Assembly (NCBI RefSeq): GCF_010500835.1
Contig: NZ_JAAAMJ010000001.1
Span: 620,001-684,000 of the forward strand
Source of the DNA: Aurantimonas aggregata
GTDB taxonomy: Bacteria > Pseudomonadota > Alphaproteobacteria > Rhizobiales > Rhizobiaceae
Direction: 5' to 3'
Length of the DNA stretch: 64,000 bases
The stretch's first letter is position 1; every line of letters begins with the position of its first letter. The translations under genes were made by a program, and so were the position numbers. This document shows, piece after piece, positions 53,757 to 59,207 of the stretch. The notes under the pieces were generated by a model. That model made no database searches. It was not told the DNA's origin and saw nothing but the letters and a program-made list of their open reading frames with translations.

Positions 53757-53787
53757 AGTCGACGACGTCCCTGGGATGTCGTCGACT
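53757..53787 (+). terminator. Hairpin between the OpgD-like and binding-protein genes
   Basis: AGTCGACGAC and GTCGTCGACT form a perfect 10-bp stem around an 11-nt GTCCCTGGGAT loop, 60 bp after the OpgD stop. No T-run follows, so termination is plausible, not certain. Confidence 0.4.
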
Positions 53788-53883
53788 GACTTGTCGGACC
53801 TTCATCAAGCTGTCACAGGCAATGCGTTAGTCGCTCGGCCGATGGGCCTTTCGCCCGACGAACGCTATCCGAGGAACCGTCCG

Positions 53884-54864
53884 ATGATCCGCAAGCTCAG
53901 CCTCCTGGCCGCCTTCGCCGCCACCTTGCTCTCCGGCTCCGCCTTCGCCCAGTCGGGCAGCCTGGTGCTCTACACCAGCCAGCCCAACGAGGACGCGCAG
54001 GCGACGGTCGATGCCTTCGAGGCGAAGTATCCCGACGTCGACGTCCAGTGGGTGCGCGACGGCACGACCAAGGTGATGGCCAAGCTCCAGGCCGAGTTCG
54101 CCGCCGGCGCGCCGCAGCCGGACCTGCTGCTCATCGCCGATAGCGTCACCATGGAAGGCCTCAAGCGCGACGACCGCCTGATGCCCTATGCCGAAGCCGA
54201 CACGACCGGCTACGAGGCCGGGCTGCACGACGCGGACGGGACGTATTTCTCGACCAAGCTGATCACCACCGGCATCGTCAACAACACCCGTTCCGAAATG
54301 ACCCCCGCGTCCTGGCAGGATCTCGCCAAGCCGGAGGCGAAGGGCCAGGTCACGATGCCGAGCCCGCTGACCTCGGGCGCGGCGCTCGTGCATCTGGCGG
54401 CGATCACCCAGAACGCCGATCTCGGCTGGGAATACGTCGAGTCGCTCGCTGCCAACGGCGCGACGGCGGCCGGCGGTAATGGCGGCATTCTCACGGCCGT
54501 GGCCGGCGGCGAGAAGGCCTATGGCGTCATCGTCGACTATCTGCCGATCCGCGAAGCCGCCAAGGGCGCACCGGTGAACTTCGTCTTCCCCGAGGAAGGC
54601 GTCACCGCCGTCACCGAGCCGGTAGCGATCCTCAAGACCGCCCAGAACCCGGAAGCCGCCAAGGCCTTCGTCGACTTCCTCTTGAGCGAGGAAGGCCAGA
54701 AGCTCGCCGCCAGCCAGGGCTACCTGCCGGCCCGCGACGGGATCGAAGGCCCGGCCGGCTTCCCGGCCCGCGAGACGATCAAGCTGATGCCGTTCGATGC
54801 CGCCAAGGCCCTCGCCGACGAGGAAGCCAACAAGCAGCGCTTCGGCGAGATCTTCGGCGGCTGA
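53884..54864 (+). CDS. ABC importer periplasmic binding protein (FbpA/AfuA/2-aminoethylphosphonate-type)
   Basis: This 326-residue binding protein has a Sec signal peptide (about 1-23: KLSLLAAFAATLLSGSAFAQ). The mature part begins SGSLVLYTSQPNEDAQATVDAFEAKY, typical of type II binding proteins that carry ferric iron, and related ones for 2-aminoethylphosphonate or spermidine. YLPIREAAKGAPVNFVFPEEG near residue 220 is where iron-binding FbpA has its ligands, but the Tyr pair of FbpA is not obvious, so iron is not assured. Start ATG at 53884. The permease gene follows 32 bp after its stop. Confidence 0.88.
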   Translation: MIRKLSLLAAFAATLLSGSAFAQSGSLVLYTSQPNEDAQATVDAFEAKYPDVDVQWVRDGTTKVMAKLQAEFAAGAPQPDLLLIADSVTMEGLKRDDRLMPYAEADTTGYEAGLHDADGTYFSTKLITTGIVNNTRSEMTPASWQDLAKPEAKGQVTMPSPLTSGAALVHLAAITQNADLGWEYVESLAANGATAAGGNGGILTAVAGGEKAYGVIVDYLPIREAAKGAPVNFVFPEEGVTAVTEPVAILKTAQNPEAAKAFVDFLLSEEGQKLAASQGYLPARDGIEGPAGFPARETIKLMPFDAAKALADEEANKQRFGEIFGG

Positions 54865-54896
54865 CGCTGAGCCGCATTACCGACAGTGCCAGACGT

Positions 54897-56576
54897 TTGG
54901 ACGGCGAGAGCATCACTCTCGCCGTTCTTGTCGTTTTTGTCGGGCTCGTCAGCGTGCTGCCGGTGGCCCGCCTCGCCTTCGAAGCGTTCTTTCCCGGCGG
55001 CACGCCCGACCTCTCCAATGTCCGCTCGGTACTCGCCGCCCGGTCGACCTGGACCGCCACCTGGAACTCGCTGGTCACCGCCACGCTCGGCACCGCGATC
55101 TCGCTCTGCCTCGGCACGCTGTTTGCTCTTCTGGTCGCGCTGACCGACATACGCGGCAAGGCCGCACTCGTGTTCTGCTTCCTCCTGCCGCTGATGATCC
55201 CCCCGCAGGTGACGGCGCTGTCGTGGGCCCAGCTTGCCGGCCCTGCAAGCCCGCTGCTGATCACGCTGGGCCTGGCGCCGCCGCTGGGCTCGCCCAATCC
55301 GCTCTACAGCGCCCAAGGGATCGTGCTCCTGCTCGGCATCCAGCACGCGCCGCTGGTGTTCCTCGCCGTGCGCGCCGGGCTGCGCGGCCTGCCGCGCGAG
55401 ATGATCGAGGCGGCGCGGGCCTGCGGCGCGAAACGCCTGCGCGTCCTTTCGACGATCGTGCTGCCGATGATGACGCCGCCGCTGGTCGCCGGCGGGGCGC
55501 TGGCCTTCGTCTCCGCCGTCGGCAATTTCGGCATCCCGGCGCTGCTCGGCATCCCGGCCGGCTACACCGTACTGCCGACGCTGATCTACCAGCGGCTGGC
55601 GAGCTTCGGCCCGGCGATCATCTCGGACGTCGCGGTCCTGTCGATCGTCGTCGGCGCCCTCGCCTTCGTCGGCTTCGCGGTGCAGGCCCTGGTCATCGGC
55701 AAGCGCGACTATCGCAGCGTCGGCGCGCCCTCGCAGGCGCTGCGCTATGCGCTCGGACGATGGCGCGTCCCGGCCGAAATCCTCGCCTGGACGATCATCG
55801 TGGCGATCCTCGTGGTGCCGCTGGTCGCCCTCCTGACCACCTCGCTGGTGCCCGCCTATGGCGTGCCGCTGACCGCCGACACCCTGACGCTCGGCAACTA
55901 CGCCGAGGTGCTTCTGCGCCAGGATTCGACGATCCGCGCCTTCCGCAATTCGTTCCTGCTGGCGGCCGGCGCGGCGCTGGTGCTGATGGCGGTATGCGTG
56001 CCGTTCGCGGCCTTCATCGTCTGGCGCCGCAGCCGCTTCCTCGACGTCATGGCGATGACCGCCGAAGTGCCCTACGCCCTGCCCGGCATCGTGCTCGGCG
56101 TCGCGGCGATCCTCCTGTTCGTCGTGCCGCTGCCGCTCGTCGGGATCAGCCTCTACAACACGATCTGGATCATCTTCTTCGCCTATCTGGCGCGGTTCCT
56201 GACATTGTCGCTACGGCCGGTGATCGGCGCCGTGCAGCAGACCGACCGGGCGCTGGAGGAAGCCGCACGGATGACCGGCGCGCGCTATCTTTTCCGGCTG
56301 CGCACCGTAGTGCTGCCGCTGCTGGCGCCGGCCGCGGCGGCGGGCGCCATCCTCACTTTCATGACCAGCTTCAACGAGCTCACCGTTTCGGCGCTGCTCT
56401 GGTCGGCCGGCAACGAGACCCTGGGCGTCGTCGTGTTCAACCTCGACGATTCCGGCGCGACGGTGCTGGCCTCGGCGGTGGCCGCGGTGACGGTGGTGGC
56501 GATCGTCGCGATCATGGGCGTGACGGCGCTGGCGGCGCGCCGGCTGCCGCGCGGCGTCCTGCCCTGGACCGACTGA
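54897..56576 (+). CDS. ABC importer permease, two fused membrane domains
   Basis: This 559-residue permease has two BPD-type halves, each with its EAA loop (EAARACGAKRLRVLSTIVLP and EEAARMTGARYLFRLRTVVLP). It has twelve or so membrane helices and matches FbpB/AfuB-like single-chain permeases. No ATG or GTG is in frame before TM1; TTG at 54897 is used, with CTG at 54867 (LSRITDSARRLDGE-) a more family-like possibility. It follows the binding-protein gene. It ends seven bases before the stop of the ATPase gene on the other strand. Confidence 0.9.
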   Translation: MDGESITLAVLVVFVGLVSVLPVARLAFEAFFPGGTPDLSNVRSVLAARSTWTATWNSLVTATLGTAISLCLGTLFALLVALTDIRGKAALVFCFLLPLMIPPQVTALSWAQLAGPASPLLITLGLAPPLGSPNPLYSAQGIVLLLGIQHAPLVFLAVRAGLRGLPREMIEAARACGAKRLRVLSTIVLPMMTPPLVAGGALAFVSAVGNFGIPALLGIPAGYTVLPTLIYQRLASFGPAIISDVAVLSIVVGALAFVGFAVQALVIGKRDYRSVGAPSQALRYALGRWRVPAEILAWTIIVAILVVPLVALLTTSLVPAYGVPLTADTLTLGNYAEVLLRQDSTIRAFRNSFLLAAGAALVLMAVCVPFAAFIVWRRSRFLDVMAMTAEVPYALPGIVLGVAAILLFVVPLPLVGISLYNTIWIIFFAYLARFLTLSLRPVIGAVQQTDRALEEAARMTGARYLFRLRTVVLPLLAPAAAAGAILTFMTSFNELTVSALLWSAGNETLGVVVFNLDDSGATVLASAVAAVTVVAIVAIMGVTALAARRLPRGVLPWTD

Positions 56577-56583
56577 CGACTGC

Positions 56584-57678
56584 TCAGGCGGCGCGCGCGG
56601 CGGGAACCCGCATGGCGGCGCCGGGCAAAAGCCAGCCATCCCTGATCGCGATGCGGACCTCGGTTCCCGTCGGGACCAGGCGCGGCGCCCAGACCGGCAG
56701 CAGCTGCGCCGGCGCTGCCGCCGGCGCCACTTCCAAGAGGGCATGCGAGCCCTTGAACGTCGCCTTGGCGACGCGCGCGGCAAAGCCCTCGCCGTCGGAG
56801 AGCGTGAGATGTTCCGGCCGCAGGCAGAGCCGCGCCGTAGTGCCAAGCGGCGCCAGCGTGGCGGGATCGGCCCGCACGTCGGCCTCGTGGCCGAACAGCG
56901 CGACATGGGCCCTGCCGGATGCCGCCGGGCCGACGACGCGGCAATCGACCACCGAGCCGTTGCCGACGAAGCGGGCGACAGCCTCGCTGGCGGGCTCGCC
57001 GTAGAGCGTCACCGGGTCTGTGACCTGCAGCACCCTGCCCGCCTCCATCACCGCAACCCGGTCGGCCATGGCCATCGCCTCGGCCTGATCGTGGGTGACG
57101 TAGACCATCGTTGCCTTGGTGCGTTCGTGGAATTCCTTGAACGTGTCCTCCATCGAGGCGCGAAGATTGACGTCGAGATTGGCCAGCGGCTCGTCGAGCA
57201 GCACCACCGCCGGGTCCATCGCAAGGCAGCGCGCCAAGGCCACGCGCTGGCGCTGGCCGCCGGAGAGGTCGGCCGGCCGCCGCGCCTCGAAGCCGGAAAG
57301 GTCGACGGCGGCTAGCGCCTCGGCGACCTTGTCGGCCTTCGCCGCGCCCCTGATGCCGCGCACCCGCAGCGGATAGCCGACATTCTCGGCAACACTCATG
57401 TGCGGCCAGAGCGCATAGGACTGAAAGACGATGCCGACATTGCGGTCTTCGGGCGGCACATGCCGGCCCTCACCCGCCATCACGGTGCCATCGAAGCGGA
57501 TCGCCCCGGAGGAGAGCGTGTCGAAGCCGGCGATCAGCCGCAAGAGTGTGGTCTTGCCGCAGCCGGACGCGCCGAGCAGCGCCACGAACTCGCCCGCCGC
57601 GATCTCCAGCGACACGCCGTCGACGGCGGCGGCATCGCCGAAGCGCTTGGTGACGGCGGAGAGGGAGATCGCGGACAT
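56584..57678 (-). CDS. ABC importer ATPase (FbpC/PotA-type)
   Basis: This 364-residue ATPase has the canonical Walker A GASGCGKTT, the SYALWPHMSVAENVGYPL Q-loop region, the signature LSGGQRQRVALAR, Walker B VVLLDEPLANLD and the switch His in YVTHDQAEAMA. The C-terminal part (about 240-364) is a TOBE_2 domain. ATG at 57678. It converges with the permease gene, seven bases between stops. Because its partners are on the opposite strand, it must be made from a separate transcript, even though it probably serves the same importer. Confidence 0.92.
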   Translation of the reverse strand: MSAISLSAVTKRFGDAAAVDGVSLEIAAGEFVALLGASGCGKTTLLRLIAGFDTLSSGAIRFDGTVMAGEGRHVPPEDRNVGIVFQSYALWPHMSVAENVGYPLRVRGIRGAAKADKVAEALAAVDLSGFEARRPADLSGGQRQRVALARCLAMDPAVVLLDEPLANLDVNLRASMEDTFKEFHERTKATMVYVTHDQAEAMAMADRVAVMEAGRVLQVTDPVTLYGEPASEAVARFVGNGSVVDCRVVGPAASGRAHVALFGHEADVRADPATLAPLGTTARLCLRPEHLTLSDGEGFAARVAKATFKGSHALLEVAPAAAPAQLLPVWAPRLVPTGTEVRIAIRDGWLLPGAAMRVPAARAA

Positions 57679-57784
57679 GGGAGGCTCGTCATGGCAGGAA
57701 AATCTGCCGGCAAGGATAGGGCGCGCGCCCTCCGAGCGCGAGAGCATTCGGCAGGGCGCGGCCTGTGATCGGCTTCGGGTCCCC

Positions 57785-58807
57785 TTAGCGCGAGGAGAAC
57801 TGGTCCTCCATCCGCCGCTGCCATTCGGGCGACAGGATGATCCGGTCGATCTCGATGCGCAGCCGCTCGGACCCGACGTGGAACAGCGGCATGGCGACGG
57901 TACCGGCGAAGCGCTGCACGCTCTTTTCGCCGGCAGCGCTCCTGGCGGCCTGGTAGGGATAGGCGATCCGGTCGATCTCGTCCGCCTCCAGCGCCGTCAT
58001 GGCCCGATCGAGGCTGTCGAAGCTGGTGAGCGTCCGAGCCGCTTTCAGGTCGCTTTCGGGCACTGCCCCGTCCGCGACGAAGCCGACGCGCTGATCCGCG
58101 ATCGCATCCTCGAGGCTGGGGCCGCTGCCCTTTTGGCCGGTGAGCGACACCAGATAGGCGGTCAGGATAGCTGTCAGCGCCATGGAAAACAGCATCCAGA
58201 TCATCGCCACGGCGCGTCCGCCCAGCGTCTTCGGCACGAGGTCGCCGTAGCCGATCGTCGTCGCCGTCACGCCGGCCCACCAGAAGCCGTCGCCGATACC
58301 CTTGATGCTGGATTCGCGTGCCGCGAGGTCGCCGTTGCCGGATTTCTCGACCAGCCAGAAGATCGTACCGACCACCAGCAACAAGACGCTGAGCATGCCG
58401 ACGACCTTGAGGAAGCCGAGATTGAAGAGGCCGGCGAGCCCCTCCACGAAGCCCGAAGCGCTCGACGTGCCGGGCGCGCCGATCAGGCCGATCGGGTCGA
58501 CATGGAACGGCAGGCTGCGCCGGACCGTGTCGGACACCTGCGGCTCGGCGTAGACCGGAAAGACCGCCTGCATCGACCCGATCTCCGGCTGGCTGCCGGC
58601 CGCAACCAGCCTGTAGTAGAGCCCTGCCGCGTCCGCTGCCTCCCGGAACAGGTCGACCGCCGGCCCGCTCCAGTTGCCGTCCCCGTCCTGCGTCGCATAG
58701 GGCGCGATCTCGACGACCCCGACCTCCTGCGCAGTAGCGCTCGGACCCGGCAGGCTGAAGGCGGCAAGGAAGGCGAGACCGGCGAGGAACCGGAGAAATC
58801 TTGGCAT
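57785..58807 (-). CDS. GluR0-like ligand-gated potassium channel
   Basis: This 340-residue protein has the layout of prokaryotic ionotropic glutamate receptors such as GluR0: a signal peptide (about 1-27), the first half of a periplasmic ligand-binding domain (about 28-125, with DLFREAADAAGLYYRLVA and the DTVRRSLPF motif, whose R96/R97 fits the ligand-carboxylate Arg), helix M1 (about 131-153), a pore loop with the K+ filter TTIGYGD (183-189), helix M2 (about 195-222), and the second half of the ligand domain (about 230-325). The gene is read towards the importer ATPase, in line with it. The ligand is unknown. This is a striking and rare family member. Confidence 0.88.
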   Translation of the reverse strand: MPRFLRFLAGLAFLAAFSLPGPSATAQEVGVVEIAPYATQDGDGNWSGPAVDLFREAADAAGLYYRLVAAGSQPEIGSMQAVFPVYAEPQVSDTVRRSLPFHVDPIGLIGAPGTSSASGFVEGLAGLFNLGFLKVVGMLSVLLLVVGTIFWLVEKSGNGDLAARESSIKGIGDGFWWAGVTATTIGYGDLVPKTLGGRAVAMIWMLFSMALTAILTAYLVSLTGQKGSGPSLEDAIADQRVGFVADGAVPESDLKAARTLTSFDSLDRAMTALEADEIDRIAYPYQAARSAAGEKSVQRFAGTVAMPLFHVGSERLRIEIDRIILSPEWQRRMEDQFSSR

Positions 58808-58979
58808 GACGGAGGCGTACTCGGTGTGAGGAAGATCAACGCGGGCTGATGAGCCTTTCGAACAGCAAAACGCCTAGGACGCAACGCCGTCGGCGCCAAA
58901 CTGATCCGCAGTCTGGCGAGCGAGTGCATGAGGCACGCGATCTCGCGGGGGCCGCGATGAGCCTCGCCCTTCCCCACGG

Positions 58980-59147
58980 GCGTCATCCTCGAGCTTGACC
59001 CAAGGACCCATTCCTCGGCGCTGACCCCGCGAAAACCGCGCAGAGGATCCCAACAAACCTGAAGCAGGTAGCGCATCCTCGGCGCCGATTTGGCGGCGTC
59101 GAGGACTTGGCATGGGTCCTCGGGTCAAGCCCGAGGAGGACGCCGTG
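58980..59147. repeat. Inverted intergenic repeat (MITE/RIME-like)
   Basis: Within the 400-bp stretch without a gene (58808-59207), GCGTCATCCTCGAGCTTGACC at 58980 onward is repeated in inverted form at about 59107-59147 (GGGTCCTCGGGTCAAGCCCGAGG), with arms of about 40 bp and a centre of about 90 bp. The arms contain the CGTCATCCTCGGGCTTGACC-type motif, widely scattered in alphaproteobacterial intergenic DNA. No transposase is present. A small hairpin made of CCTCGG/CCGAGG parts is expected. The rest of the stretch shows nothing. Confidence 0.75.
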
Positions 59148-59207
59148 TTGGGGGTTCGGTGCCAATCGCATCAGGCAGCTGAGCGCGACATGGACGCATA
59201 CGGCGCT

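Follow-up and report, generated by a model that had tools for sequence, protein, structure and literature searches.

Does the gene at positions 57785-58807 of the window (the whole 64,000-nucleotide stretch of Aurantimonas aggregata contig NZ_JAAAMJ010000001.1 that was analysed) encode a relative of the glutamate-gated potassium channel GluR0, and is the protein still gated by an amino acid? An earlier note on this DNA had proposed a GluR0-like, ligand-gated channel in which the ligand-carboxylate Arg of the family appeared conserved. The channel gene is a single uninterrupted reading frame on the minus strand, as that note had it, and its parts are as follows.

57785-58807, minus strand: channel gene, 340 amino acids (ORF; Ion_trans_2 at 1.8e-16; dN/dS ~0.16-0.18 in congeners)
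58730-58807, minus strand: putative Sec-type signal sequence, residues 1-26 (hydropathy peak at residues 4-22 and inspection)
58469-58729, minus strand: S1, the predicted first periplasmic clamshell half, residues 27-113 (hhalign to canonical S1)
58535-58537, minus strand: codon of V91, the residue that aligns with the canonical alpha-carboxylate Arg, here lost (alignments)
58337-58405, minus strand: M1 transmembrane helix, approximately residues 135-157 (hydropathy; helix in the model)
58241-58261, minus strand: K+ selectivity filter TTIGYGD, residues 183-189 (Pfam, alignment and hydropathy; 12/12 relatives)
58136-58225, minus strand: M2 transmembrane helix, residues 195-224 (hydropathy; helix in the model)
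57788-58135, minus strand: S2, the predicted second clamshell half, residues 225-340 (hhalign to canonical S2)
57956-57958, minus strand: codon of P284, the residue that aligns with the canonical amino-group Asp, here lost (alignment)
57700-59200, no strand assigned: channel-bearing segment of ~1.5 kb, absent from two congeners (BLAST against L068 and L069)

The reading frame is more than a chance one, being kept across genera (48-93% protein identity) with low dN/dS among congeners. Its N-terminus is signal-like by hydropathy and inspection only, with an AxA-like site (ATA/QE) following the hydrophobic peak, and cleavage would fall after ATA. A second copy of the channel gene was not found in the same genome, and PADLOC returned no match. 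The two-helix K+ pore described previously was recovered by Pfam, with Ion_trans_2 (PF07885) matching residues 140-222. The invariant filter lies between hydrophobic peaks for M1 (residues 123-157, best 135-153) and M2.

The sequence flanking the pore was harder to place. PDB searches with the single sequence or with the lineage profile found K+ channel pores only, among the matches listed, and plasmid and phage collections held only pore-level or 32% matches to the channel. Pfam Lig_chan scored the window protein at 28.1 bits, below its cut-off of 30.8, and this sub-threshold match was the sole one across its own genome and 14 control genomes. SBP_bac_3 reached 13.2 bits against a gathering cut-off of 26.4; by sequence, the protein is only a distant relative of family-3 solute-binding proteins. 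Of the SBP3-like split domain claimed previously, the split stands while the family-3 match falls short of the cut-off.

We then used relatives as a bridge, comparing the window protein and its close relatives (L001-L006, L009 and L038-L041) with canonical relatives from the window's own family and from the Sphingomonadales (including L012, L043 and L048). The profile of the canonical relatives matches 2pyy, the ligand domain of NpGluR0 (3.2e-39), as well as whole AMPA receptors (~3e-30); they are therefore genuine members of the prokaryotic glutamate-receptor family. The window lineage makes no such direct match, although its full-length profile aligns to the canonical profile with 100% probability over 304 columns and the architecture is the same. 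With the pore removed, hhalign paired S1 with canonical S1 at 98.4% and with the S1 of intermediate relatives (described below) at 98.2% (control 0.1%); for S2 the values were 89.6% and 93.2%, respectively (control 0.5%). Mismatched pairs of halves reached at most 0.5%. The order clamshell half, pore, clamshell half is common to all 12 aligned lineage members.

The structure prediction and fold comparison that the earlier note had proposed gave a concordant result. An AlphaFold model from a ten-sequence alignment, which was helped by three distant relatives from viral contigs, had a pLDDT of 73.5, with many blocks at 78-95 in the halves and a weaker pore; without the distant relatives (seven close relatives) the model was poor (pLDDT 53.4). 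When the better model was searched against the PDB, the best 50 matches were all AMPA or NMDA receptors (E ~1e-12 to 1e-11, TM-score ~0.41-0.51). Profile-profile comparison, tree and predicted fold together support a clamshell half - K+ pore - clamshell half architecture and kinship with GluR0, bearing out what had been proposed for the split periplasmic domain and for relationship to the ionotropic glutamate receptors (iGluRs). Synechocystis GluR0 and other Group 1 receptors likewise have S1 and S2 around M1-P-M2, a K+ filter and homologous halves, together with a signal sequence that is putative in the window protein (PMC2950845, PMC13099474), but the window lineage differs from them in having neither the S1 Arg nor the S2 Asp.

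The ligand pocket is where the window protein departs from its family. In GluR0 the S1 Arg holds the alpha-carboxylate and the S2 Asp holds the alpha-amino group, and both residues were reported as totally conserved in the known prokaryotic receptors in a 2010 survey (PMC2950845). Nearly all of our canonical relatives keep the ITxxRE Arg and the VYD or VHD Asp, whereas the Arg column is V91 in the window protein and holds V, L, M, I, G, A or S in the lineage, 11 of whose 12 members are without Arg; L041 has an Arg in this column by position. The S2 Asp column (P284) is Pro in 12/12 lineage members versus Asp in 37/40 canonical relatives, and the conserved S2 Tyr has likewise become Pro in every lineage member. 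The earlier note had taken R96/R97 for the conserved ligand Arg. The alignment rules both out: R96 varies within the lineage, and R97, kept in 10/12 of the clade and replaced by His or Gln in L039 and L040, lies six columns past the Arg position and aligns with a canonical Phe. Four residues at columns that would line the pocket, judging from the canonical family (Y37, D104, P284 and P307), are fixed in 12/12 lineage members, the pocket replacements being mostly Pro, Ala and Phe. Relative to the canonical proteins S1 is shorter by ~6 residues and S2 by ~10. The description of the protein as ligand-gated through the family's carboxylate Arg thus fails, since Arg and Asp are lost in the lineage, and the pocket residues suggest that the window protein is probably an amino-acid-gated channel no longer.

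Phylogeny places this change in a wider group. Six intermediate proteins (L010, L052, L070 and L098-L100) have lost both Arg and Asp but retain a nearly full-length clamshell, and in the tree they share one side of a branch with the window lineage (support 100/99), making a well-supported "empty-pocket" clade to which the window gene belongs. The pore helix reads TMTT in the intermediates and TATT in the window lineage; the filter is TTVGYGD in canonical relatives versus TTIGYGD in the window lineage. Among proteins with a K+ filter, 16/17 with IGYGD are without both residues and 25/30 with VGYGD have both, although these proteins share ancestry and the counts are not independent events. Since Arg and Asp both occur in solute-binding proteins and in iGluRs, loss rather than gain is the likely direction of change in the lineage.

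The altered clamshell is not decaying. Comparison of three Aurantimonas species gives an overall dN/dS of 0.16-0.18, and by region the pairwise omega is 0.10-0.28 in S1, 0.08-0.13 in the pore and 0.10-0.20 in S2. Other lineage pairs give similar values, with S2 of one close pair at 0.53 on few changes. Twelve genomes from two orders carry the gene with its frame intact. Purifying selection acts on every domain, and the clamshell is constrained.

Our preferred reading, to which we assign a probability of about 0.5, is a K+-selective channel of GluR0 architecture whose lineage has dismantled the alpha-amino-acid site, leaving an agonist-free clamshell. Four subunits would assemble, each with a periplasmic clamshell and an inverted M1-P-M2 pore, and would conduct K+ across the inner membrane. 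The inverted orientation of GluR0 is supported by PhoA fusions, and GluR0 mediates K+ uptake in E. coli and is reported to have a role in cell volume in Synechocystis during ionic or osmotic shifts (PMC13099474). By analogy with GluR0, the window protein may provide a leak for K+ or help to regulate cell volume when such shifts occur. Like that of GluR0, its clamshell would still be required for function; its main tasks may be to assemble the tetramer and to set the open probability at rest, with no amino-acid agonist involved. Four points weigh against this reading: the fixed pocket residues could equally mean a new and specific ligand, L041 has an Arg in the Arg column, the clade profiles found only K+ pores among the PDB matches listed, and the better structural model depended on distant relatives.

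A clamshell re-purposed for a non-amino-acid ligand, leaving a ligand-gated K+ channel comparable to the insect ionotropic receptors (IRs), is a tenable if less probable alternative. Purifying selection on both halves and the lineage-specific residues fixed at canonical pocket columns would suit it, and the IRs, whose divergent ligand domains are without some or all of the glutamate-interacting residues, provide a precedent (PMC2924276). However, a conserved metabolic neighbourhood pointing to a ligand was not found around the channel genes, the replacements are mostly Pro, Ala and Phe, and both halves are shortened. An orthodox amino-acid-gated GluR0, with R96 or R97 in the carboxylate role that the original description gave them, is improbable. 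It can draw on the shared architecture and filter class and on the retention of R97 in most of the clade, but it has to contend with the position of R97 opposite a Phe and its replacement in two members, with Pro in place of both the Asp and the S2 Tyr throughout the lineage, and with the total conservation reported for Arg and Asp in the known receptors.

We consider it very unlikely that the gene is what remains of a glutamate-gated channel that has lost its function and is decaying; lost binding residues and shorter halves might be expected of one, but not the low dN/dS (below 0.14 in the pore) nor the intact frames across two orders. Hardly credible at all is an ordinary KcsA-type channel with unrelated flanking sequence, the outcome that the earlier note had named as fatal to its proposal. 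The sequence-only PDB searches, with their K+ channel pores among the matches listed, fit such a placing; once the relatives are brought in, the homology of S1 and S2 to canonical halves without the pore, with low negative controls, overrides it. A plain two-helix channel of this type would have no clamshell, and the iGluRs that fill the best 50 of the fold search argue against that too.

We think it quite probable that the clade is a bacterial parallel to the insect IRs, in which alpha-amino-acid recognition was lost once, the clamshell stayed under selection for some other input (a different ligand, the ions or pH of the periplasm, or assembly of the tetramer) and the gene spread horizontally between Sphingomonadales and Hyphomicrobiales. 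The likeness lies in an iGluR architecture with a divergent ligand domain and is an analogy only, not membership, since the IRs are eukaryotic, chemosensory and have a eukaryotic-type pore. A clade that is without Arg and Asp yet selected along its whole length is a natural experiment on what clamshells do beyond ligand binding, and the canonical relatives, intermediates and window lineage form a graded series for how gating and binding separate. Annotation of window-lineage proteins as "glutamate receptor" is, we suggest, wrong.

In the tree the copies from Aurantimonas cluster with Altericroceibacterium, within a clade (100/97) that is otherwise rich in Erythrobacteraceae. This nesting suggests horizontal gain, and the gene was probably acquired from Erythrobacteraceae relatives. 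Within the genus, 3/9 genomes have the window type and 1/9 the intermediate type. The earlier note's statement that GluR0-like channels are rare in alphaproteobacteria is roughly right: their distribution is patchy, at a few per cent of the sampled genomes, a lower bound because the genomes searched were a sample and the large-group searches scored five to nine candidates per genome.

The earlier note had also placed the channel in line with an ABC importer ATPase and proposed a shared solute. The ATPase (likely start 57678) is indeed on the same strand, ~106 bp away, but the shared solute finds no support in synteny. In the congeners G789 and G041, fhs adjoins a complete ABC operon and the channel is missing from the gap; BLAST homology to L068 and L069 stops at window position 59201 and restarts at 57699, the congener spacing being ~135 bp. 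With fhs and the entire operon present in two congeners but the channel absent, the link looks accidental, and we rejected the channel as a component of the importer. The adjacency was seen only in one Aurantimonas sublineage, and no such operon lies near clade members of other genera: the channel gene follows ligA in Croceicoccus, precedes a radical-SAM gene in L002-L004 and follows an Lrp/AsnC regulator in L059 and L060. The operon itself (53776-57747, both strands) comprises a binding protein and a fused permease on the plus strand and a convergent ATPase on the minus strand. It scores closest to 2-aminoethylphosphonate-type importers, not amino-acid importers, though below curated cut-offs. 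In genome G639 (L061:7187-10244) the channel gene comes immediately after those for tryptophan 2,3-dioxygenase and kynureninase on the same strand, one case only, and a possible hint at an aromatic ligand.

Other channels of related kind were encountered during the searches. Two contigs catalogued as viral in IMG/VR, 264 kb and 40 kb long, encode GluR0-type K+ channels (L072:2962-3975 and L071:2773-3987, respectively) that are full-length and have an intact ligand Arg and Asp; the Cafeteria roenbergensis virus protein E3T502 is a further match to the fold (2.7e-14). Genome G284 (contig C64) has a tandem array of at least four iGluR-like genes (L031 and L033-L035) without the GYG filter and the canonical Arg and Asp, so that both parts are rewritten. 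The reverse of the window lineage is seen in L093, L095, L097, L103-L109, L111 and L113, where Arg and Asp are kept and the filter is of a non-K+ type (for example TQASTGV, TQAGAAQ or AGHPH). Lastly, upstream of the channel gene lies an inverted pair of the 17-base repeat CTTGACCCGAGGACCCA, at 58994-59010 on the plus strand and 59113-59129 on the minus strand; allowing one mismatch, this repeat occurs nine times in the genome, against none for the reversed control.
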